Shown one piece after another: positions 2,913 to 36,592 of a DNA stretch of 36,898 bases. The position numbers and the translations under genes are program-made. The notes below the pieces were generated by a model, which had not been told where the DNA came from, did no database searches, and saw only the letters and a list, made by a program, of their open reading frames with translations. Within the stretch, counting starts at the first letter, position 1; each line of letters begins with the position of its first letter. Source of the stretch: Candidatus Methanomicula labiotermitis (GTDB lineage: Archaea; Thermoplasmatota; Thermoplasmata; Methanomassiliicoccales; Methanomethylophilaceae); contig WQZU01000012.1 in the NCBI GenBank assembly GCA_009780575.1, positions 1 to 36,898 of the forward strand, given 5' to 3'.

Positions 2913-3004
2913 CGATACAACGTTACGAAGAGAAATTAAATGATAACGGATTAACGGAAAAATGACGAAAAATGATACGGAAAAATGTACGGAAACATGA
3001 TAAC

Positions 3005-4288
3005 ATGAACGAATCCGGCGAACTGTCAAAGATGCTCGGATCTGCAGGCGCAGACGAGGGTTCCGTCATATCGTTAACGATCGGCGATAAGGAATACGAA
3101 GGCGTCCTGATGTCTCACAGGGACGATATCATTGTCATAAAGATGAAAAGCGGATACAACGCCGGATTCAGAGTGAAGAAGGGAGACTCCGTAAAGGTCA
3201 TCGGAAAACCGGCAACGAAAGTTCATAAGACGCAGGAGCACAAGATGAAGAACGGACTTCCGAATATCGTTCTCATAGGAACGGGAGGTACTATCGGTTC
3301 AAAAGCGGACGGCGGATCGATGCGCCCCGGTCTGTCGGCAGAACATTTTTTGGATATTGTTCCCGAGGTTCTCGATGTTGCGAATGTGAAGGTAAGGAAC
3401 ATTATCTCGGTTTTCTCGGAGAACATGAATGTCGATCATTGGAAGGAGATTGCCAAAGCAACGGAGGAAGAACTTAACAACGGCGCCGCCGGCGTTGTTA
3501 TATCGCACGGCACGGACACCATGGGTTACACGGCTGCGGCACTGTCATTCATGTTAAAGGAAATAAGCGGCCCGGTTGTCCTGACGGGATCGCAAAGACC
3601 GACCGACCGACCGTCATCGGACGCTCCCGGTAATATCATGGCGTCCGTAAGATTCTGCGCGTCGTCAAAGGCCGCCGGCGTCTATGTGGTGATGCATGAC
3701 ACTATGAACGACGATTCGTATGCGGTGCATCGCGGCACACGCGTAAGGAAGATGCACACTTCCAGAAGGGATGCGTTCCGAAGCGTGAACACGGTGCCGG
3801 TTGCGCACATTGACGCATCGGGAAAAATAACGTTCAAAGATGATATAACGGCGGCATCAAAGAGAACGGCCGCATACACGGATATGGAAAAGAGAGTGAC
3901 GCTTCTTCAATTCTATCCCGGAATGGATCCGGCACTGTTCAAAGACGTGATCATGGATTCAAAGGGAATAGTTGTGGCAGGCACCGGACTCGGACACGTA
4001 AGCAACGAAATGGCATCACTGTTCGGCAAAGCAATAGGAAAAGGTGCGGTCGTCGTTATGACATCGCAATGCATGAACGGACCGCTGGGTATGGATGTTT
4101 ACGACACCGGGCGGGAGCTTAGGAAGATCGGAATCATACCTGTATCGGATATGCTGCCCGAAACAGCCTACGTGAAACTCATGTGGGCGCTTGCAAATTC
4201 AAAAGATACGGATGAAGCGAAAAGGATCATGAACACACGGCTTTCGTATGAGACGAGCGACAGGAGGACGGTCGATGTCATCTGGTGA
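3005..4288 (+). CDS. gatD: Glu-tRNA(Gln) amidotransferase subunit D
   Basis: GatD is the asparaginase-like subunit of the archaeal GatDE enzyme. It releases ammonia from Gln or Asn for conversion of Glu-tRNA(Gln) to Gln-tRNA(Gln) in the cytoplasm. The 427-residue protein has the GatD N-terminal beta domain (about 1-75) and then an asparaginase domain with the full catalytic set: Thr96 in TGGTIG, Thr170-Asp171 in HGTDTM and Lys249 in RVRKMH. I prefer the ATG at 3005 because MNESGELSK matches the usual GatD N-terminus; an in-frame ATG at 2972 would add 11 residues. No good ribosome site precedes either. An AT-rich promoter lies near 2931-2942. It overlaps gatE by 14 nt, so the subunits are co-translated. 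Confidence 0.97.
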   Translation: MNESGELSKMLGSAGADEGSVISLTIGDKEYEGVLMSHRDDIIVIKMKSGYNAGFRVKKGDSVKVIGKPATKVHKTQEHKMKNGLPNIVLIGTGGTIGSKADGGSMRPGLSAEHFLDIVPEVLDVANVKVRNIISVFSENMNVDHWKEIAKATEEELNNGAAGVVISHGTDTMGYTAAALSFMLKEISGPVVLTGSQRPTDRPSSDAPGNIMASVRFCASSKAAGVYVVMHDTMNDDSYAVHRGTRVRKMHTSRRDAFRSVNTVPVAHIDASGKITFKDDITAASKRTAAYTDMEKRVTLLQFYPGMDPALFKDVIMDSKGIVVAGTGLGHVSNEMASLFGKAIGKGAVVVMTSQCMNGPLGMDVYDTGRELRKIGIIPVSDMLPETAYVKLMWALANSKDTDEAKRIMNTRLSYETSDRRTVDVIW

Positions 4289-6137
4289 CAGGTTCATCTG
4301 CGGTATCGAGATACATCAGCAGCTCAACACGAAGAAATTGTTCTGTTCCTGCGAAAGCGAGCTTTCCGAAGAGAGTACGGACACATACTTCAGAAGACTG
4401 AGACCGACGGCCGGAGAGTCGGGGCTGACGGATCATGCGGCTTTGATCGAATCGAAGAAGCAGAGAGGGTTCAGATACCAGTCGCCGGCGCGAGTAAGCT
4501 GTTTAGTAGAACTTGATGAAGAACCGCCCGGGAACGTTAACCCGGACGCGCTGGATATAGCGCTTACATTTGCCGCAATGGTCAACGCGAAGATAATTGA
4601 TGAGATCCATTTCATGAGGAAGATCATCGTTGACGGTTCCGGGCCCGGAGGATATCAGAGGACGGCCATGGTGGCCGTTGACGGGTACATCGAGATCAGC
4701 GGCAAAAGGATAACGATCCAGTCCGTATGTCTGGAAGAGGACTCGGCGAGGAAGATAGAAGAGAAGGACGGCGAAGTAACGTATCGCCTGGACCGCCTGA
4801 GCATACCTCTCATAGAGATAGCCACCGGCCCGGACATCAGGACGCCGGAAGAGGCGATGGAAGTCGCTCTGAGAATAGGAACAATGTTAAGGGCCACGAA
4901 AAAAGTGAAGAGAGGTATAGGCACTATACGGGAGGACATAAACATCTCCCTGCCCGGAGGACCGAGGACCGAAATTAAAGGGGCGCAGGAACTCAGACTC
5001 CTTCCGATGTACGTGGAGAACGAAGTGCAGAGACATATTATGCTTACGGAGATCAAAAAAATACTTTCATCACGAAATGTTTCCGCTGACGGCAAATTGG
5101 AAGATGTGACCGCTGTATTCAAGGATTGTCAGTCAAAGGTCATCAGAGGCGCATTGTCGGAGAACGGAAAAGTAATGGCGGTCAGACTTCAGGGATTTGC
5201 GGGAGTGCTCAACGGCGGCGACGGAAAGTTACGATTGGGTGCGGAGATGGCGCAAAGGGCCAGGACCAAAGGCGTGAAAGGAATATTCCATTCCGATGAA
5301 TTACCCGCATACGGTATTGAACAGGATATTGTCAATAAGATACGCGAACATCTGAAAATGAAGGAACAGGACGCTTTCGTCTTATGCGCGGAAAAGGAGA
5401 ACGTTTGCATAACGGCGCTTGAAGCGGCCGTCGAAAGGGCAAAGGAAGCGCTTACCGGGGTTCCCGAGGAAACGAGAGACCCGCAGCCCGACGGAACATC
5501 AAGATACATGAGACCTCTCCCGGGAGCGGCAAGAATGTATCCGGAGACGGATGTGCCTCCCATAATGATAACAAGCGACAGACTCGAAAGGATATATTCC
5601 AATTTACCGGAACTTCCGGAAGAGACGGAAAAGAGACTCATCTCAAAATACGGACTCAATGATCAGCAGGCCCGGCAGATCGTCAGGGAAGGCAACGAGG
5701 ATCTGTTCGAAAAGATAGCCAAAGACAGGAGCATGGTATCCATCGCAGCGACGACGTTCCTCGGCACATTCACGGAAATGGAACGCGAAGGAACGAACAT
5801 CGGCGCAATATCGGAAGGATCGGTACTCGAGGTCTTCGATTCTCTGAAAGGATCGAAGTTCGCCAAAGAAGCGTTGCCCTCGCTGTTCAGGGAGATAGCG
5901 AAAGGCGTATCGCTGAATGATGCGGTAAAGAAGCTCGGAATAGGCGCGGTGGACGAAAGCGAAGCGATAAGGATCATCGCCGGAATTGTGAAAGAACGCG
6001 AAAAATTCGTCAGGGAGAAGGGAACAGCATCCGCCGGTCCGCTGATGGGGCCGGTCATGGAAGCGCTGAGAGGAAAACTGGACGGCAAAAGGATGAACGA
6101 ACTTCTCGCTGCTGAGATCAAAAGGATATTGGATTAG
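4275..6137 (+). CDS. gatE: Glu-tRNA(Gln) amidotransferase subunit E
   Basis: GatE activates the glutamate of Glu-tRNA(Gln) with ATP and amidates it with ammonia from GatD. The 620-residue protein opens with the GatB/GatE cradle (GIEIHQQLNTKKLFC), has an AspRS-like insert in the middle and ends with helical and YqeY-like tail domains, the normal GatE order and length. The start at 4275 has AGGAGG about 7 nt upstream and lies inside the gatD end. The stop is TAG, one of only two in the window; the frame beyond stays open for 91 codons antisense to the HemK-type gene, so readthrough would give an implausible tail. It converges with that gene, overlapping by 4 nt. Confidence 0.97.
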   Translation: MSSGDRFICGIEIHQQLNTKKLFCSCESELSEESTDTYFRRLRPTAGESGLTDHAALIESKKQRGFRYQSPARVSCLVELDEEPPGNVNPDALDIALTFAAMVNAKIIDEIHFMRKIIVDGSGPGGYQRTAMVAVDGYIEISGKRITIQSVCLEEDSARKIEEKDGEVTYRLDRLSIPLIEIATGPDIRTPEEAMEVALRIGTMLRATKKVKRGIGTIREDINISLPGGPRTEIKGAQELRLLPMYVENEVQRHIMLTEIKKILSSRNVSADGKLEDVTAVFKDCQSKVIRGALSENGKVMAVRLQGFAGVLNGGDGKLRLGAEMAQRARTKGVKGIFHSDELPAYGIEQDIVNKIREHLKMKEQDAFVLCAEKENVCITALEAAVERAKEALTGVPEETRDPQPDGTSRYMRPLPGAARMYPETDVPPIMITSDRLERIYSNLPELPEETEKRLISKYGLNDQQARQIVREGNEDLFEKIAKDRSMVSIAATTFLGTFTEMEREGTNIGAISEGSVLEVFDSLKGSKFAKEALPSLFREIAKGVSLNDAVKKLGIGAVDESEAIRIIAGIVKEREKFVREKGTASAGPLMGPVMEALRGKLDGKRMNELLAAEIKRILD

Positions 6138-28709: not shown

Positions 28710-30515
28710 ATGAGAAGGACTCATACCTGCGGGGATCTGCGTTCAAAGGATATAGGCAAGAAAGTCTGCATGCAAGGCTGGGTAAGGTTTTCCAGGGACC
28801 ACGGAGGCGTGGAGTTCATAGACCTTGCGGATTCTTACGGAATAACGCAGCTGGTATTCGATCCGGAAGACGTGCCGAACGGTTCCGACAGGAACGAGAT
28901 ATCCGAAGTTTTAAGATCATTCACACGGGAGTCCGCCGTCTCTGTGGACGGGATCGTCAGAAAAAGGGTCAAAGGAACTGAAGACCCCAAGAACAAAACC
29001 GGCGATGTCGAGGTCCTTATAACAAAAGCGGAAGTTCTCAACAGATCTAAGACGCCGCCGTTCGAGATCGGCGACCAGAAGGAGTCGGTGCTTCCCGGAG
29101 AGGAGACAAGGCTGAGGTACAGATATTTGGATATCAGAAGGACGGAGATGTCGGAGGCCCTGAGATTCAGACACAGATTTCTTTCAGCCGCAAGAGAATA
29201 TTTTGACAAGAGCGGTTTCGTTGAGGTTGAAACTCCGATGCTCACTAAGAGCACCCCGGAGGGCGCCAGGGATTTCATAGTACCGTCAAGGGTGCATCCC
29301 GGAACGTTCTACGCGTTACCGCAGTCCCCTCAGCTTTTCAAACAGCTGCTCATGATAGGAAGCATGGACCGGTATTATCAGGTTGCCAGATGCTTCCGCG
29401 ACGAGGATTCCAGATCGGACAGGCAGCCGGAGTTCACGCAGCTGGACATTGAGATGTCGTTCGTTGACATGAAGGATATCCAGGATACGATAGAAGGACT
29501 GATCGCCCACGTTTGGAAAAAGATCTACAGTAAAAAGCTGAAAACGCCGTTCCCGCGGATATCCTTCGGCGAGGCCATGAGCAAATACGGAACGGACAAA
29601 CCGGATCTCAGATACGGATTGCCGATGCATCATATCACTGAAATAGTGAAGGATGCGCCTTACGACATATTCCAGAAGGTGCTTTCAAAAGGCGGCGTAA
29701 TTGCGGGATTCAACGTAAAATCCGAGATCGCCAAAGACAGGATAGGAAGGAACGAGATAGACCGTCTGATCGAATTCGTGAAGAAGAACGGATTGGGCGG
29801 AATGACGTGGATGCGTGCAACGAAAGATGGTTTGGACAGCAACATAGTGAAATACTTCACTCCCGACGTGCTGTCAAAACTGAGGAAGAAGATGGACGTA
29901 AAGGAAAACGATCTTCTGTTCCTGCTCGCCGGTCCTGAGAAGAACGTTCTCGAGACGGGAGGCACCCTCAGGAGAAAACTGGCGGACGACCTGGAACTCA
30001 TCGATCCGGACGTTTTCAAATTCGCGTGGATCGTGGACTGTCCGATGTTCGAGACCGACCCGGCATCCGGTAAGAAAGGTGCGTTCCATCATCCGTTCGT
30101 TTTTCCCACGACTCCGCTCGATGCTGAGAACGCGGGCGGCGCATCATTCGATCTCGTACTGAACGGGAGCGAACTGGGAAGCGGGTCGCAGAGGATTCAT
30201 GATCCGGAGATTCAAAAAGAGGTGTTCAGGATGCTCGGGATCTCCGAGGAGAAAATGGAATCGGATTTCGGATTTCTATTGGAGGCGTTGGGATACGGGG
30301 CGCCGCCGCACGGCGGAATAGCTTTGGGGATAGACAGGATGATAAGCGTACTCCTGAACAAAGAGAGCATACGCGATGTCATAGCGTTCCCGAAGAACAA
30401 AAAAGGACAATCATTACTTGACGGTTCGCCGCAGAAGGTCGACGATGAGAAACTTGAAGAGTTACAGATACTGTCGATAGCGATAGACGATATCAATATC
30501 GGAGATATTGAATGA
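28710..30515 (+). CDS. aspS: Aspartyl-tRNA synthetase, bacterial type, probably non-discriminating
   Basis: AspRS charges tRNA(Asp), and in non-discriminating forms also tRNA(Asn), with aspartate. The 601-residue length and the extra GAD-type domain (about 290-420) between motifs 2 and 3 mark the bacterial class; typical archaeal AspRS is about 430 residues. Motif 2 is FRDEDSRSDRQPEFTQLD from 229 and motif 3 is PPHGGIALGIDRM near 535. His31 (RDHGG) and Gly89 (VKGTEDP) match the residues linked to relaxed tRNA recognition in bacterial enzymes. GatCAB genes lie about 2.5 kb downstream on the other strand. The gene is probably of bacterial origin. Confidence 0.95.
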   Translation: MRRTHTCGDLRSKDIGKKVCMQGWVRFSRDHGGVEFIDLADSYGITQLVFDPEDVPNGSDRNEISEVLRSFTRESAVSVDGIVRKRVKGTEDPKNKTGDVEVLITKAEVLNRSKTPPFEIGDQKESVLPGEETRLRYRYLDIRRTEMSEALRFRHRFLSAAREYFDKSGFVEVETPMLTKSTPEGARDFIVPSRVHPGTFYALPQSPQLFKQLLMIGSMDRYYQVARCFRDEDSRSDRQPEFTQLDIEMSFVDMKDIQDTIEGLIAHVWKKIYSKKLKTPFPRISFGEAMSKYGTDKPDLRYGLPMHHITEIVKDAPYDIFQKVLSKGGVIAGFNVKSEIAKDRIGRNEIDRLIEFVKKNGLGGMTWMRATKDGLDSNIVKYFTPDVLSKLRKKMDVKENDLLFLLAGPEKNVLETGGTLRRKLADDLELIDPDVFKFAWIVDCPMFETDPASGKKGAFHHPFVFPTTPLDAENAGGASFDLVLNGSELGSGSQRIHDPEIQKEVFRMLGISEEKMESDFGFLLEALGYGAPPHGGIALGIDRMISVLLNKESIRDVIAFPKNKKGQSLLDGSPQKVDDEKLEELQILSIAIDDINIGDIE

Positions 30516-30642: not shown

Positions 30643-31839
30643 ATGAAAGCAATGGTAATAGGTTGCGGAGGCGTAGCGACAGTTACTGTACACAAATGTT
30701 TCCAAAACAGCGAGGTCTTTTCCGAGATAGTGCTTGCAAGCCGCACTAAAGAGAAATGTGTCGCCCTAGCCAAAAAATTAGAGGGCGGGAAAACAAAGAT
30801 AACACCTGAAAAGGTTGATGCCGAGAACATCCCGGAGCTTGTTGCGCTCATAAACAAACACAAGCCGGACATCGTTCTGAATCTTGCACTGCCTTACCAG
30901 AACATTCCTATAATGGAAGCATGCCTGCAAACAAAAACCCATTATCTGGATACTGCTTTATCGGAGCACCGTGAGATCGTCAAATACGATTACGAGGAAC
31001 AGTGGGGTTACCACGAGCGTTTCAAAGAGGCCGGCATAATGGCGCTGCTCGGGTGCGGCTTCGACCCGGGAGTGACAAGCGTATTCGTCACGTACGCGCA
31101 GAAACATTATTTTGATCAGATAGAGTACATCGACATACTGGATGCGAACGGCGGCGACCATGGTTATCCGTTCGCTACGAATTTCAATCCGGAGATCAAC
31201 ATCCGCGAGGTGAGCGCAGACGGCTCATACTGGGAGAACGGAAAGTTCGTACCGGTCAAATGTATGGAGATCAAAAGGACATACAATTTCGATACTATAG
31301 GACAAAGAGACATCTACCTGATGTATCACGAGGAGATCGACAGCATCGTGAAGTATGTGAAGGGACTGAAAAGAGTACGTTTCTTCATGTCCTTCGGACA
31401 AAGCTACATAACTCATCTGAAGTGCCTTGAAAACGTAGGTATGACATCGATCAAACCGATAATGTTCGAAGGCAGGGAGATAGTTCCGCTGCGGTTCCTG
31501 AGAGCTGTGCTGCCGGATCCGGCCTCACTCGGCCCGAGGACGAAAGGATACACGAACATAGGCTGCATAATCACCGGCAAAAAGAACGGTAAAGAGGTCA
31601 AATATTACGTGTACAACATCTGCAGCCACGAGGAAAGCTACAAGGAAGTGGGTTCGCAGGCGGTCTCATACACCGCGGGAGTGCCGCCCATGATCGGTGC
31701 GATGCTCATGCTGAAGGGCGTTTGGAGCGGTGCCGGAGTATTCAACATGGAACAGTTCGATCCGGATCCGTTCATGGAAGCATTGAACAGATGGGGACTG
31801 CCGTGGAAAGAAGACTTCGATCCAGAGCTGGTGGAGTGA
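30643..31839 (+). CDS. Carboxynorspermidine synthase (saccharopine-dehydrogenase-like)
   Basis: This 398-residue NADPH enzyme joins aspartate semialdehyde with a diamine to give carboxynorspermidine or carboxyspermidine. Evidence is the N-terminal Rossmann motif MVIGCGGVATV, ASRTKEKC for NADP binding, and GCGFDPGVTSVF (147-158), all typical of the CASDH branch of the saccharopine dehydrogenase family. The next gene, 4 nt on, encodes the matching decarboxylase, which makes this branch more likely than true lysine-pathway enzymes. The route is chiefly bacterial. Confidence 0.9.
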   Translation: MKAMVIGCGGVATVTVHKCFQNSEVFSEIVLASRTKEKCVALAKKLEGGKTKITPEKVDAENIPELVALINKHKPDIVLNLALPYQNIPIMEACLQTKTHYLDTALSEHREIVKYDYEEQWGYHERFKEAGIMALLGCGFDPGVTSVFVTYAQKHYFDQIEYIDILDANGGDHGYPFATNFNPEINIREVSADGSYWENGKFVPVKCMEIKRTYNFDTIGQRDIYLMYHEEIDSIVKYVKGLKRVRFFMSFGQSYITHLKCLENVGMTSIKPIMFEGREIVPLRFLRAVLPDPASLGPRTKGYTNIGCIITGKKNGKEVKYYVYNICSHEESYKEVGSQAVSYTAGVPPMIGAMLMLKGVWSGAGVFNMEQFDPDPFMEALNRWGLPWKEDFDPELVE

Positions 31840-31842
31840 GCG

Positions 31843-32958
31843 TTGAACAGATACATTCTGAACGAGCCGACCCCTTATTATGTGATAGATGAAGCCTTAC
31901 TCATCAAAAACCTGAAGGTGCTCCGCTCAGTGAAGGAGAGAACGGGATGCAGGATACTGCTCGCTCAGAAGGCGTTCTCGTGTTTCCATTTATATCCGTT
32001 GATAGCGGAGTATCTGGACGGCGCCACTGCCAGCGGCCTTTTCGAAGCACGCCTGGGTCATGAGAGATTCAGGAAAGAGAACCACGTCTTTTCGGCGGCG
32101 TACCGTGAAGAGGAGATGGACGAGATCAATGAAATATGCGACCACATAATATTCAACTCGTTCGGCCAGCTGAGAAGGTTCGCACCTAAGTTAACAAAAA
32201 AATTGGGACTGAGGATAAATCCGCAGGTCTCAACGCAAAAGAAGGACATGTACGATCCGTGTGCGCCGTTCTCAAGGCTCGGGGTCCGAGCTCCGGAGTT
32301 CGAGAAGAATGAAGACCTTCTGAAATATATCAGCGGTTTCCATTTCCATACGCTTTGCGGTCAGAACTCAGACGCACTTGAGGTCACGTTACGCGGCGCG
32401 GAAAAGAACTTCTCGCAATATTTTGACAACATCGAATGGCTCAACTTCGGCGGAGGGCATCATATAACCCGAAGCGATTATGACGTGGAACTGCTTGTCT
32501 CACTGATAAACGAGTTCAAAGACAGATATAATGTTCAGGTCTATCTGGAACCGGGCGAGGCGGTCGTGCTGAACGCAGGGTTTCTGGTGTCCTCGGTATT
32601 GGACGTCGTGGAGAACATAAAAAGGATCGCGATCCTGGACACAAGTGCGGCCTGTCACATGCCGGATGTGATCGAAGGCCCGTACAAACCGCGCGTGACG
32701 GGCGAAGGAGGAACGCATCAGTACCGCCTGGCGGGATGTACCTGTCTGGCGGGAGACGTGATCGGCGATTATTCGCTGCAAAACGAGCTGAGGACAGGCG
32801 ATAAGATCGTCATTGAGGATATGGCGCTTTACACGATGGTGAAGAACAACACGTTCAACGGCATAGGTTTACCTTCAATTCACAAACTGGATCCCGACGG
32901 GAAGCCGTCGAAGATAAAAGGTTTCGGATATGAGGATTTTATCGAAAGGTTAAGCTGA
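31843..32958 (+). CDS. nspC: Carboxynorspermidine decarboxylase
   Basis: NspC is a PLP enzyme of the alanine-racemase fold that decarboxylates carboxy(nor)spermidine. The 371-residue protein shows Lys43 (AQKAFSCF) as the PLP lysine, HFHTLCGQNSD near 162-172, FGGGHH and EPGEAVV for phosphate binding, and a Cys in DTSAACHMPDV near 270. The start is a TTG at 31843 with GGAGTGA 4 nt before it; no in-frame ATG lies near. The gap to the synthase stop is 3 nt, so both are translated together. Confidence 0.93.
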   Translation: MNRYILNEPTPYYVIDEALLIKNLKVLRSVKERTGCRILLAQKAFSCFHLYPLIAEYLDGATASGLFEARLGHERFRKENHVFSAAYREEEMDEINEICDHIIFNSFGQLRRFAPKLTKKLGLRINPQVSTQKKDMYDPCAPFSRLGVRAPEFEKNEDLLKYISGFHFHTLCGQNSDALEVTLRGAEKNFSQYFDNIEWLNFGGGHHITRSDYDVELLVSLINEFKDRYNVQVYLEPGEAVVLNAGFLVSSVLDVVENIKRIAILDTSAACHMPDVIEGPYKPRVTGEGGTHQYRLAGCTCLAGDVIGDYSLQNELRTGDKIVIEDMALYTMVKNNTFNGIGLPSIHKLDPDGKPSKIKGFGYEDFIERLS

Positions 32959-32964
32959 TCCTCA

Positions 32965-34302
32965 TTATCGGATCATCTCATCCAATATTTTCTTCGTTGT
33001 TTCAACGATGTCCGATGACGGGTATGCGCCCCTCGTTTCTTTCATCACGGTGCCTATGATGCTGTTGCCCGCTTTCTCGTTCCCGCGGTAATCGTCGACA
33101 ACGGACGGGTTGCCGGCGATAGCCTTCCGTATGAGAGCGTCAAGGTCGGCATTGTTCTTCTCCATGCTCCGAAGGTCTTCGCCGGTTATGTATGCTTTCA
33201 GAAGCATCGAACACTCAACATCGTTTATCTCGCCGTTCATGAACCGGACGACTATATCCGTAAGTCCGTCCTTTTTCGTGTCAGCATCTTTTTCCAGCGA
33301 TCTCCAATTGGAACTTATCGGTCCGGAGATCCATTTCAGTGCATTCTCCTTTCCTGTCTTCCTGGCAAAATGTTCAAAGAGTTCCGCAAGCTTCACCGAT
33401 GTGTTCACGATCTGCTTCGCCGCCTTTTCCTCAAGGCCGAACTCTTTTTGGAGGCGCATCGCCATGCTCAGCGGGCTCTCCTTCGTTTCGATGCGATCAG
33501 CTATCCTTCTCACATTGATCGATCCGAGGTTCGGTTCTCCGATGTACGCATAATCGCCTTCGTATTCTTTCTTACGGGCGGCGGTCGTTACTTTTCGCTC
33601 TTCATCGTAGTGTCTTGTTTCTCTTACTATCCTGCCGCCGGATCTGAGGATCTTTGTCTGTCTTACAGCTTCGTACGTCAGCGCGCGTTCAACGTTCTTA
33701 AGACCGGTGACGTTCTTGACCTCACACCTTTCCGTTCCGACGGATATATTGCAATCAACGCGTATGCTCCTTTCGCCGTCGCTCGGAAGGTCTATCACAT
33801 GCCGTATGTCCTTCAGCAAGAAAGTCAAAAATTCTCTGGCCTCCGCCGGCGATGAGATATCTGGGTCTGTTACAATCTCCACAAGCGGCATACCGCTCCT
33901 GTTGTAATCTACGAGGCTGCCGTCGCCCGATCTCTCCATGCTTCCGGGATCCTCTTCCAAATGGGCCCTCGTGATGCCAATCCTTTTCTTACCGAGATAA
34001 TATTCTCCCTTCAGGCCGACAGGCGTCTCGTACTGCGTTATCTGATAGTGTCTGCAAAGGTCCGGATAGAAGTATATCTTGCGGTTGAACCACATCACGT
34101 CCGGTATGCTGCAGTTAAGAAGTCTGGCTAATTTGATCCCGATGTCGACCGCCGCTCTGTTCAGAGCAGGCCTGGTTCCCGGCATGCCCATGCATCCCGG
34201 GCATATGTGCTCGTTCGGCCCCGCTGCGCCGACGGCCGGGCAGGAACAGAACATCTTCGTCTTCGTCGGCAGTTGCACATGTATCTCAAGTCCGATCTTC
34301 AT
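32965..34302 (-). CDS. gatB: Asp/Glu-tRNA amidotransferase subunit B
   Basis: GatB activates the acyl group of Asp-tRNA(Asn) or Glu-tRNA(Gln) with ATP and amidates it. The 445-residue protein has the GLEIHVQL opening, the zinc site Cys19, Cys21, Cys34, Cys37, DYNRSGMPLVEIVT and a C-terminal helical plus YqeY-like tail. It overlaps gatA by 4 nt. With GatDE in the same genome its expected job is Asn-tRNA formation. It converges on nspC, 6 nt apart. Confidence 0.96.
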   Translation of the reverse strand: MKIGLEIHVQLPTKTKMFCSCPAVGAAGPNEHICPGCMGMPGTRPALNRAAVDIGIKLARLLNCSIPDVMWFNRKIYFYPDLCRHYQITQYETPVGLKGEYYLGKKRIGITRAHLEEDPGSMERSGDGSLVDYNRSGMPLVEIVTDPDISSPAEAREFLTFLLKDIRHVIDLPSDGERSIRVDCNISVGTERCEVKNVTGLKNVERALTYEAVRQTKILRSGGRIVRETRHYDEERKVTTAARKKEYEGDYAYIGEPNLGSINVRRIADRIETKESPLSMAMRLQKEFGLEEKAAKQIVNTSVKLAELFEHFARKTGKENALKWISGPISSNWRSLEKDADTKKDGLTDIVVRFMNGEINDVECSMLLKAYITGEDLRSMEKNNADLDALIRKAIAGNPSVVDDYRGNEKAGNSIIGTVMKETRGAYPSSDIVETTKKILDEMIR

Positions 34303-35594
34303 GAACGAACCTCCGCGGTCTTCATGTCAAACGCTTTTTCCCAAAGATCCGCCGCAGACAGAAGGATATCCTCATCCCAATGATCGGAGATGAACTGCAT
34401 TCCGATGGGCATTCCGTCAGAGTAGCCGCAAGGCACCGACAAACACGGTAACCCGCAGAACACCGGCGGTGCGGCGAAACGTCCGGTCATGTACGAATCC
34501 GCGGAACGCATTCTGACGGCGTCGTCTATCTTCGGCGATATGAAAGGCATGCTCGGCGTCAGTATGACATCATGCTCGCCGAGAACCCTTTTGTGATCAT
34601 TGATGACAAGATTCCTTGCTCCGAGCGATCTCAGGTACATGTTCCTTCTGTTGTCTCCCATGGTCATGTACGTTCCCATGATCGATCTGAGCTTTGTCTC
34701 CGTGCCGAAATACTTTGACCGGAACGAGACGAAGTAGTCGTTGAAAGGCAGCGAAAGGTCACCGTCCTGACGGCCGCATCTCATGCCGCAATATTGCACG
34801 AGGTTCGTTGCGGCCTCCGTTACGCTGACAACGTAATGCGCCGGCATAGCGTATTTCAAATGAGGCATATCCACAATTTCAACGCTGACAGACATGCTTT
34901 TCAGAAGTTCCACGGAATCTTCGAACGCGCTGCGTACGGAATCGCTAACGTTGTCGGTGATGCCTTTCGGCACCGCCGCTGTTTTTAATTTTCTGTTTCC
35001 GATCCTGAGTTCCGGCTGTGCGGCGGAAACCGGATCTCTGTCGTCTTTCCCTGATATCAGCGGTAAATATTTTCTCAGCAGATCGCTTTTCGATGCAAGT
35101 ATACCGATCGGACCCATAGAACTGACCCCGTCTATCTGCCCGTAACGGGAAATGCGTCCGTGTGTGGGCGTAAGCCCGAGGACCCCGCAGAAAGCCGCCG
35201 GAGAGGTTATCGATCCGCCGCCGGATGTTCCGAGCGCAACATGTCCTTCAAGCAGGGCCGCGGCGCAGGCGGCGCCGCCGGACGAGCCGCCGCATGACCG
35301 CTCCGGGTCGAACGGGTTCCTCGGAATGCCGGTTCCGGTGACGGAGAACATCCCGAAGCCGAACTCATCCATGTTCGTTTTCCCTATCAAATGATTACCG
35401 TTCATTTTCGAGACAACGGCCGCATCGAACAACGGACGATATCCTTTCAGCATTTCAGACCCGGCGGTAGCCTGAAACCCTCTGGCTGTTATGTCGTCCG
35501 ATAATGAATACGTGAGAACCTCATCAAGCGTCGATGCATCAAACTCACTGAACATCCGATATCTTTCGATCAAAGGCTCACGACCGGAACTCAT
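34299..35594 (-). CDS. gatA: Asp/Glu-tRNA amidotransferase subunit A with altered catalytic site
   Basis: GatA normally frees ammonia from glutamine with a Ser-cisSer-Lys triad. This 431-residue chain (start ATG 35594, overlapping gatC by 4 nt) is shorter at the N-terminus than the usual 470-490. Nucleophile Ser128 (GTSGGGSIT) and cis-Ser104 (CGGSSGG) are present. However, the VKDNI motif that carries the catalytic lysine reads LSDDI, giving Ser32 (codon at 35499-35501), in a 28-residue stretch that otherwise aligns without gaps. GTDTGGSIRQP is also changed to GTSGGGSITSP. Glutaminase activity may be lost; the subunit could be structural, or the complex may use free ammonia. Confidence 0.92.
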   Translation of the reverse strand: MSSGREPLIERYRMFSEFDASTLDEVLTYSLSDDITARGFQATAGSEMLKGYRPLFDAAVVSKMNGNHLIGKTNMDEFGFGMFSVTGTGIPRNPFDPERSCGGSSGGAACAAALLEGHVALGTSGGGSITSPAAFCGVLGLTPTHGRISRYGQIDGVSSMGPIGILASKSDLLRKYLPLISGKDDRDPVSAAQPELRIGNRKLKTAAVPKGITDNVSDSVRSAFEDSVELLKSMSVSVEIVDMPHLKYAMPAHYVVSVTEAATNLVQYCGMRCGRQDGDLSLPFNDYFVSFRSKYFGTETKLRSIMGTYMTMGDNRRNMYLRSLGARNLVINDHKRVLGEHDVILTPSMPFISPKIDDAVRMRSADSYMTGRFAAPPVFCGLPCLSVPCGYSDGMPIGMQFISDHWDEDILLSAADLWEKAFDMKTAEVRS

Positions 35595-35863
35595 ACGATC
35601 TTCGGCCCCCTGACGAATCCGTTGTACGTGCCCATGCATTTCAGCATTTCCTCGGCGTTCTCAAAGACGACCGGAACATCATCTCTAAGCGCATCGAAGA
35701 CGCCTATAGGTTCAAAGCGAAAAGAATCATCCTCCGGAACATCATTCAAAGCGTTCAGGATGTTAAGAAACGCATTGACATCATCCGTAAATCTTTCCAG
35801 ATCATCGTCCGGAAGATCGATCCGTGCGACACCCGCCACGCGTTTCACTGTCTCCTTTTCCAT
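35591..35863 (-). CDS. gatC: Asp/Glu-tRNA amidotransferase subunit C
   Basis: GatC is the small belt that holds GatA and GatB together. At 90 residues with RVAGVARIDL near the start and VFDALRDDVP (about 54-63) it is normal in length and motif. It is first of the gatC-gatA-gatB operon; a TATA-like AGTAGATAAG on the minus strand near 35895 predicts a very short leader. Confidence 0.93.
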   Translation of the reverse strand: MEKETVKRVAGVARIDLPDDDLERFTDDVNAFLNILNALNDVPEDDSFRFEPIGVFDALRDDVPVVFENAEEMLKCMGTYNGFVRGPKIV

Positions 35864-36052: not shown

Positions 36053-36592
36053 ATGACGTCCTCAAATACATTGGCAAACCCTTCCGCACTCGGTCTTTTC
36101 GGGTTCGGAATGGCGACAATAGTTCTTTCGATAAGCAACGCTGGGGCTTTCGATCCGAACACAGCAGTACTGGCAATGGGCTTCATGTGCGGAGGCGTAG
36201 CACAGATCATCGCCGGTTTGATTGATTTCAAAAAGAACAACATGTTCGGTGCGACCGTCTTCACGATGTTCGGTCTGTTCTGGATGACGCTGGTAGCAAT
36301 AAAATTGAATCTGGCTGGAATAGCCACCGAACCTGCGACAATGGGAACCGTCTTCGTAGTATGGGGTACACTGGCAGCAGTGTTCTCACTGTGCGTAGCG
36401 AAGAAGAACATTCCGCTGAGACTTGTGTTCTACGGACTGATAATCCTGTTCGCTCTGCTCGCAGCGTCTGAGTTCGCGGAAATGGAACTGCTGAAGAACA
36501 TAGCAGGCGTACTCGGTGTCATGTGTGGTGCAGGTGCATTCTACGTCGGAGTGACGGAATTCCTTAAGTGCAAGGAAGACCACGCATCATAA
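36053..36592 (+). CDS. Acetate uptake transporter (AceTr/SatP family)
   Basis: The 179-residue protein has six membrane helices at about 11-31, 38-58, 65-85, 96-115, 122-142 and 147-171, and the family signature NPSALGL at 9-15. AceTr channels pass acetate or succinate. For a gut methanogen this would suit acetate uptake as carbon source, an inference. It has its own promoter and a strong terminator, so it is monocistronic and probably well expressed. Confidence 0.93.
   Translation: MTSSNTLANPSALGLFGFGMATIVLSISNAGAFDPNTAVLAMGFMCGGVAQIIAGLIDFKKNNMFGATVFTMFGLFWMTLVAIKLNLAGIATEPATMGTVFVVWGTLAAVFSLCVAKKNIPLRLVFYGLIILFALLAASEFAEMELLKNIAGVLGVMCGAGAFYVGVTEFLKCKEDHAS

Follow-up and report, generated by a model that had tools for sequence, protein, structure and literature searches.

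To our knowledge, glutamine is close to universal as the nitrogen carrier for amidation. Vertebrate carbamoyl-phosphate synthetase I (CPS I) works from free ammonia: it is a naturally occurring amidotransferase whose catalytic Cys is missing (PMC7657897). The ant symbiont Blochmannia vafer has lost glutamine synthetase, and its CarAB has been suggested to use ammonia; the portion of that genome paper available to us reports no loss of glutaminase catalytic residues for the symbiont (PMC3017870). Among the tRNA-dependent amidotransferases, the yeast enzyme GatFAB accepts NH4Cl (PMC4027206), and so provides a precedent for a GatA-containing enzyme that works from ammonium.

Here we analyse a gatCAB operon within a stretch of 36,898 nucleotides, hereafter the window, from Candidatus Methanomicula labiotermitis, a member of the Methanomassiliicoccales. 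The operon is the same as that of canonical GatCAB, and the proteins share with canonical GatCAB and yeast GatFAB their fold and the intact catalytic residues of GatB. They differ from both in that GatA is without its catalytic Lys and without residues presumed to contact glutamine, and in that some relatives of the window GatA have lost the catalytic serines as well. The pattern resembles that of CPS I: GatA has lost its Lys while the GatB residues are intact, and in the same genome CarA has lost its catalytic Cys beside a full-length CarB (1067 aa). The CarA proteins of many of these archaea show the same kind of Cys loss as CPS I. GatCAB is, however, a different enzyme, and here the loss is recurrent, affects several lineages and more than one enzyme, and is accompanied by a glutamine synthetase that we could not detect. 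Judging from these sequences, GatA and CarA probably act as subunits of ammonia-dependent amidotransferases of the CPS I type, with dead glutaminases. Likewise, synthetase loss combined with probable ammonia use by CarAB recalls B. vafer. In a partial literature search we came across neither a natural GatA devoid of the catalytic Lys nor a case of glutamine synthetase loss in Methanomassiliicoccales; a term search of the main text of a study of 243 genomes of the order (PMC10804542) did not return the word glutamine. Thus, an amidotransferase with a dead glutaminase that uses ammonia is known from CPS I, and the GatA case appears, from its sequence, to be new.

The three genes of the operon lie on the minus strand, with gatC at 35591–35863, gatA at 34299–35594 (stop codon included) and gatB, encoding the kinase/amidotransferase subunit, at 32965–34302; gatA overlaps the stop of gatC and the start of gatB by 4 bases each. 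A longer gatA reading frame of 446 aa opens at 35639, and the shorter start is the ATG at 35594–35592. The best NCBIfam matches of the three proteins are GatA, GatB and GatC, although GatA (TIGR00132, 317 bits against a cut-off of 481.1) and GatC (TIGR00135, 45.5 bits against 47.1) fall below their own cut-offs. Three relatives with the Lys score 409–438 bits against TIGR00132 and four damaged GatA proteins score 288–323; since the Lys-bearing relatives also fall short, this cut-off does not separate intact from damaged GatA. The Pfam Amidase match of the window GatA exceeds its cut-off, and an AlphaFold2 model (mean pLDDT 87.7, pTM 0.91) best matches solved GatA chains, with TM scores of 0.93 to 3h0l_A and 0.91 to 2df4_A. 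Each of the eight genomes of this genus, which we take to be termite-gut genomes, contains one amidase-signature gene. The genome of the window (G000) measures 1.37 Mb and is 94.9% complete.

The surroundings of the operon hold several other genes. Divergent from gatCAB is a gene for a GPR1/FUN34/YaaH-family membrane protein (36053–36592, plus strand). We considered it as an ammonium-linked partner and rejected it, as 15 further gatCAB loci, not all of them complete, gave no match. Between gatB and a bacterial-type AspRS gene recognised by a profile match (28710–30515, plus strand), two genes at 30643–32958 (plus strand) resemble, by eye, carboxynorspermidine dehydrogenase and decarboxylase; no match to this pair was found at the 15 other gatCAB loci. 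A gene for a phage-integrase-family recombinase (PF00589) lies at 1654–2853 on the plus strand.

Lys79, Ser154 and Ser178 of Staphylococcus aureus GatA form the catalytic triad. The equivalent triad given in the yeast GatFAB paper is S154-cis-S130-K52 (PMC4027206). In a phmmer alignment with S. aureus GatA (2df4), Ser32 of the window GatA, counted from the ATG at 35594–35592, pairs with Lys79. It is encoded by TCG at 35499–35501 on the minus strand (cga on the plus strand), as the preliminary description had proposed. The site is covered in six genomes of the genus, and each of them has Ser. Because those six genomes agree, and 23 loci from other genera of the order in our first alignment all have Lys, the Ser is neither an assembly slip nor a chance event. 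(Amidases of Microbacterium, Nostoc and Desmonostoc were included in that first alignment only and then dropped.) Both serines are still present in the window GatA, again in agreement with the preliminary description: Ser119 and Ser143 (numbering of the 446-aa frame) pair with Ser154 and Ser178. The codon of the cis-Ser is at 35283–35285 and that of the nucleophile at 35211–35213, both on the minus strand. Hence, the triad of the window GatA is incomplete. In genus mates the cis-Ser is replaced by Pro (G050) or deleted (G051), and the nucleophile is replaced by Gly or Asn (G049, G050 and G051). An altered DTGGSIRQP loop had also been put forward as a sign of damage. The loop is indeed altered, but its D, R and Q are missing mostly order-wide, the loop of relatives with the Lys reading [VAE][SA]TGGS[IV]xxP, so the change says little about Lys loss; the replacement of the T of TGGS by G is more specific to the window GatA.

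We determined which other positions decay together with the Lys. As a reference we used the 121 positions that are at least 97% invariant among 116 Lys-bearing GatA sequences, and compared them with 15 damaged sequences, 13 of them picked by Lys loss and two (G049 and G052) from the genus of the window, in which the Lys site is not covered. Of the 121 positions, 47 are kept in every damaged sequence. The positions lost most often are Lys47 (13/13, by the choice of sequences), Tyr171 and Leu175 (13/14 each), Lys177 (12/14), Tyr268 and Arg317 (14/15 each) and Asp386 (13/15). The last three align with Tyr309, Arg357 and Asp425 of S. aureus GatA, and in the window they read His (34836–34838), Leu (34689–34691) and Gly (34482–34484), respectively, all on the minus strand. 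We take Tyr309, Arg358 and Asp425 of S. aureus GatA to be glutamine contacts, and Asp425 to be the counterpart of yeast D418. The yeast paper names R334 and D418 and assigns to D418 the recognition of the glutamine amide (PMC4027206); no paper naming Tyr309, Arg358 and Asp425 together was found in our partial search. Arg318, the equivalent of Arg358, is still present in the window GatA, and four of the 15 damaged sequences have lost it. The cis-Ser is lost in G028, G033, G050, G051, G067 and G120, and the nucleophile in G024, G049, G050 and G051; decay goes further within the genus of the window, some members of which have neither of the two catalytic serines left. Looking for another Lys in the pocket had been proposed as a check. 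We addressed this by alignment, and no replacement was evident among the sequences of the genus: a Lys kept in most of them falls at positions where 14–100% of Lys-bearing relatives also have Lys, with the exception of position 215 (Lys in 5% of those relatives), where the window has Asn.

To see how widely the Lys has been lost, we searched 147 genomes of Methanomassiliicoccales and detected a GatA match in 134. The Lys position could be scored in 127, and 13 of these, from six genera, lack Lys. Ten have Ser: six from the genus of the window, g1 (G000, G048, G050, G051, G053 and G054), and one each from g2 (G024), g5 (G028), g6 (G033) and g14 (G120). Three, all from g8 (G061, G064 and G067), have Glu. 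The 20 unscored genomes comprise 16 without a GatA sequence in the alignment (including G002 and G114, fragments missing the site) and four whose sequences lack the Lys column (G009, G044, G049 and G052). The alignment of related GatA proteins called for by the preliminary description finds Ser in every scored genome of the genus and Lys in most of the other genomes scored, the wider sampling having revealed losses beyond those of the first alignment. We built a tree from 61 GatA sequences after masking the active-site columns; on it the Lys state has to change seven times. Ser takes the place of Lys in five separate lineages and Glu does so in two other branches. The tree places G028 within g5, G120 within g14 and G061 beside G062 and G065 (starred branches), the exact place of the long sequences G024, G120 and G033 being less sure. 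Three genomes (G055, G059 and G029) have two GatA matches each; in G059, which has glutamine synthetase, the first copy keeps Lys and the second has Ala both there and at the cis-Ser.

Loss of the Lys goes together with an undetected glutamine synthetase. The family model PF00120 matched 123 of the 147 genomes and all 14 named controls, but none of the 13 Lys-less genomes; absence here means absence of a match to this one model, and the 13 genomes are 59–96% complete. Conversely, all 109 scorable genomes with a synthetase have a Lys-bearing GatA. Five genomes have no detectable synthetase yet keep the Lys (G029, G030, G043, G080 and G113). The association is strong by Fisher's exact test, which counts relatives as if they were independent (p = 4.5e-14). 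Among ten independent pairs of genomes that differ in synthetase, the Lys differs in the same direction in six to seven and in the opposite direction in none (p = 0.016–0.031); this test uses neither the G049 sequence nor the second of the two GatA copies in G059.

A separate enzyme, carbamoyl-phosphate synthase, shows a similar pattern. A search of 30 genomes yielded CarA in 25 of them, at 26 places in all, and CarA was also read in G110 and G027; there was no CarA match in G028, G033, G053, G064 and G029, and in G049 and G059 the sequence is a fragment that misses the catalytic site. Among the 17 synthetase-less genomes that cover the site, 13 have Gly, Ala or Ser where the catalytic Cys should be (G000, G024, G030, G048, G050, G051, G052, G054, G060, G068, G080, G113 and G120), and in none of eight genomes with a synthetase (G031, G056, G062, G065, G071, G121, G110 and G027) has it been lost. 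G030 has two CarA genes (L228 and L245), and the Cys is missing from both. The synthetase-less genomes that keep the Cys are G043, G061, G067 and G096; in G061 the HPE motif reads RQE. For CarA the independent-pairs test has three informative pairs, all in the same direction and none opposite (p = 0.25). Among the five genomes that have a Lys-bearing GatA but no synthetase match, three (G030, G080 and G113) lack the CarA Cys, which suggests that their synthetase absence is real too.

Not all glutamine-dependent enzymes have decayed. The window also encodes the Gln-tRNA route, gatD and gatE (2972–6137, plus strand), and the catalytic residues of its GatD are intact. We read GatD in the genus of the window, G028 and G033; the Thr, Thr-Asp and Lys, to which we assign catalytic roles, are kept in all eight genomes of the genus and in G028. 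The GatD of G033 (L152) lacks the nucleophile Thr, alongside a damaged GatA, so that both tRNA amidotransferases of that genome may lack a glutaminase. The Cys is kept in TrpG of G049 and G053 and in PurQ of G033 (proteins named by eye), and PurF Cys1 is kept in all 23 aligned sequences, with changes at what we presume to be PurF glutamine contacts in G024, G033 and G067. Since these sites are intact, some glutamine, perhaps imported, must still be in use, and for some steps the cells probably continue to draw on an external supply of it. The intact GatD, the two TrpG proteins and PurF Cys1 argue, as far as their residues tell, against a total switch away from glutamine. Matches to class-I glutamine amidotransferase domains number 0–3 in 12 genomes taken as damaged (the eight of the genus, G024, G028, G033 and G120) as against 4–7 in four controls, counts that mix incomplete genomes and several enzymes and served as a lead only. 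CTP synthase was considered as a further test and set aside, its N-terminal domain being found in only three of 19 genomes of the family and missing also from synthetase-bearing ones.

We considered whether GatCAB might be wholly non-working in these archaea, the operon being a remnant and asparagine-tRNA being made by another route. Fast evolution of gatA in some lineages would fit, with end branches of 1.56 for G120 and 1.58 for G024 in the GatA tree and a dN/dS of 0.25 between G120 and G121 (dS near saturation). An alternative route is, however, not apparent. No AsnRS exceeded the cut-off in 16 genomes, the nearest match in G000 being archaeal-type AspRS, and no full-length AsnB was found in these genomes: no Asn_synthase stretch covers more than about 150 of the 354 positions. 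The frames carry one or two such stretches each and measure 129–469 aa, apart from one of 679 aa in the control G110. (The genome of the window has a second AspRS, of archaeal type, named aspartate--tRNA(Asn) ligase, at L275:115-1485.) With neither enzyme found, GatCAB should still be needed. Moreover, the GatB catalytic residues, taken from the yeast enzyme paper (PMC4027206), show no change in any of the damaged genomes read (14 full sequences and one partial); outside this set, the His that precedes EEDPG has become Gln in G061, G064 and G067 and Leu in G028. With dS near saturation throughout, dN/dS is 0.06–0.085 for gatB in four pairs, 0.07–0.15 for gatA in five pairs from the genus of the window and 0.06–0.07 for gatA in two Lys-bearing pairs; several pairs yielded no value. 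Finally, the gatA and gatB matches adjoin an AspRS match in all 15 other genomes examined. We regard a defunct complex as very improbable, the least probable of the explanations considered here.

Continued hydrolysis of glutamine or asparagine by GatA through a changed mechanism, with Ser or another residue in place of Lys, would account for the persistence of both serines and the Arg358 equivalent in the window, and for the repeated choice of Ser, rather than random residues, in five separate lineages. It sits poorly with the appearance of Glu in two other branches, the disappearance of the nucleophile from four genomes, the loss of most equivalents of Tyr309 and Asp425, the lack of an evident replacement Lys in the alignment and the undetected synthetase, and we judge it unlikely. 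Supply of ammonia to GatB in trans by another glutaminase, for example the GatD of GatDE, strikes us as somewhat less likely still. GatD has kept its residues in the genus, and each of the 16 genomes tested has a second GatB_N match that is GatE-like, but such a supply would leave unexplained the damage to CarA, a separate enzyme, in most synthetase-less genomes, and the G033 GatD has itself lost its nucleophile; nothing points to contact between GatD and GatB.

We therefore consider it likely, although the case is built from comparison of genomes, that the gatCAB operon of the window carries a non-hydrolysing scaffold GatA, and that, following loss of glutamine synthetase, GatCAB and CarAB use free ammonium. 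The loss of residues, its recurrence, its link with an undetected synthetase and the intact GatB residues are observed. We infer from them the loss of activity, the identity of the donor, the scaffold role and the order of events, as follows. Loss of the synthetase, separately in several lineages of the order, would have ended the cells' own production of glutamine; the glutaminase sites of GatA and CarA would then have come under relaxed selection and decayed. The synthetase halves, GatB and CarB, would have been retained because they can take ammonia directly, GatB activating Asp-tRNA(Asn) with ATP and amidating it with free ammonium. GatA would persist because the complex needs it for assembly. 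The ammonium might come from the gut or from methylamine-dependent methanogenesis; uptake and monomethylamine methanogenesis are given as ammonia sources of the order, and GlnN as its likely ammonia-assimilating enzyme, in PMC4153887. The preliminary description had envisaged part of this. Its proposal that GatA has lost its glutaminase while GatB is kept gains support from the loss of the Lys in 13 of 127 genomes, together with most of the putative glutamine contacts, beside an intact GatB; the comparative data point to retention of GatA as a scaffold; and use of free ammonium is favoured by a synthetase undetected in all 13 Lys-less genomes and by CarA damage in most synthetase-less ones.

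On a broader reading we are evenly divided: several lineages of gut methanogens may have given up glutamine as a general amide donor, and, once glutamine synthetase was gone, may independently have moved the Asn-tRNA amidotransferase and carbamoyl-phosphate synthase, and PurF perhaps in part, to ammonium supplied by methylamine-dependent methanogenesis or by the gut, their glutaminases being left dead. If true, these archaea would be a natural experiment on when free ammonium can replace the channelled nitrogen of glutamine, and could be used to test directly whether GatA has any role beyond that of a scaffold. The reading predicts dependence on ammonium, and perhaps glutamine uptake, which would be useful for cultivating these methanogens.
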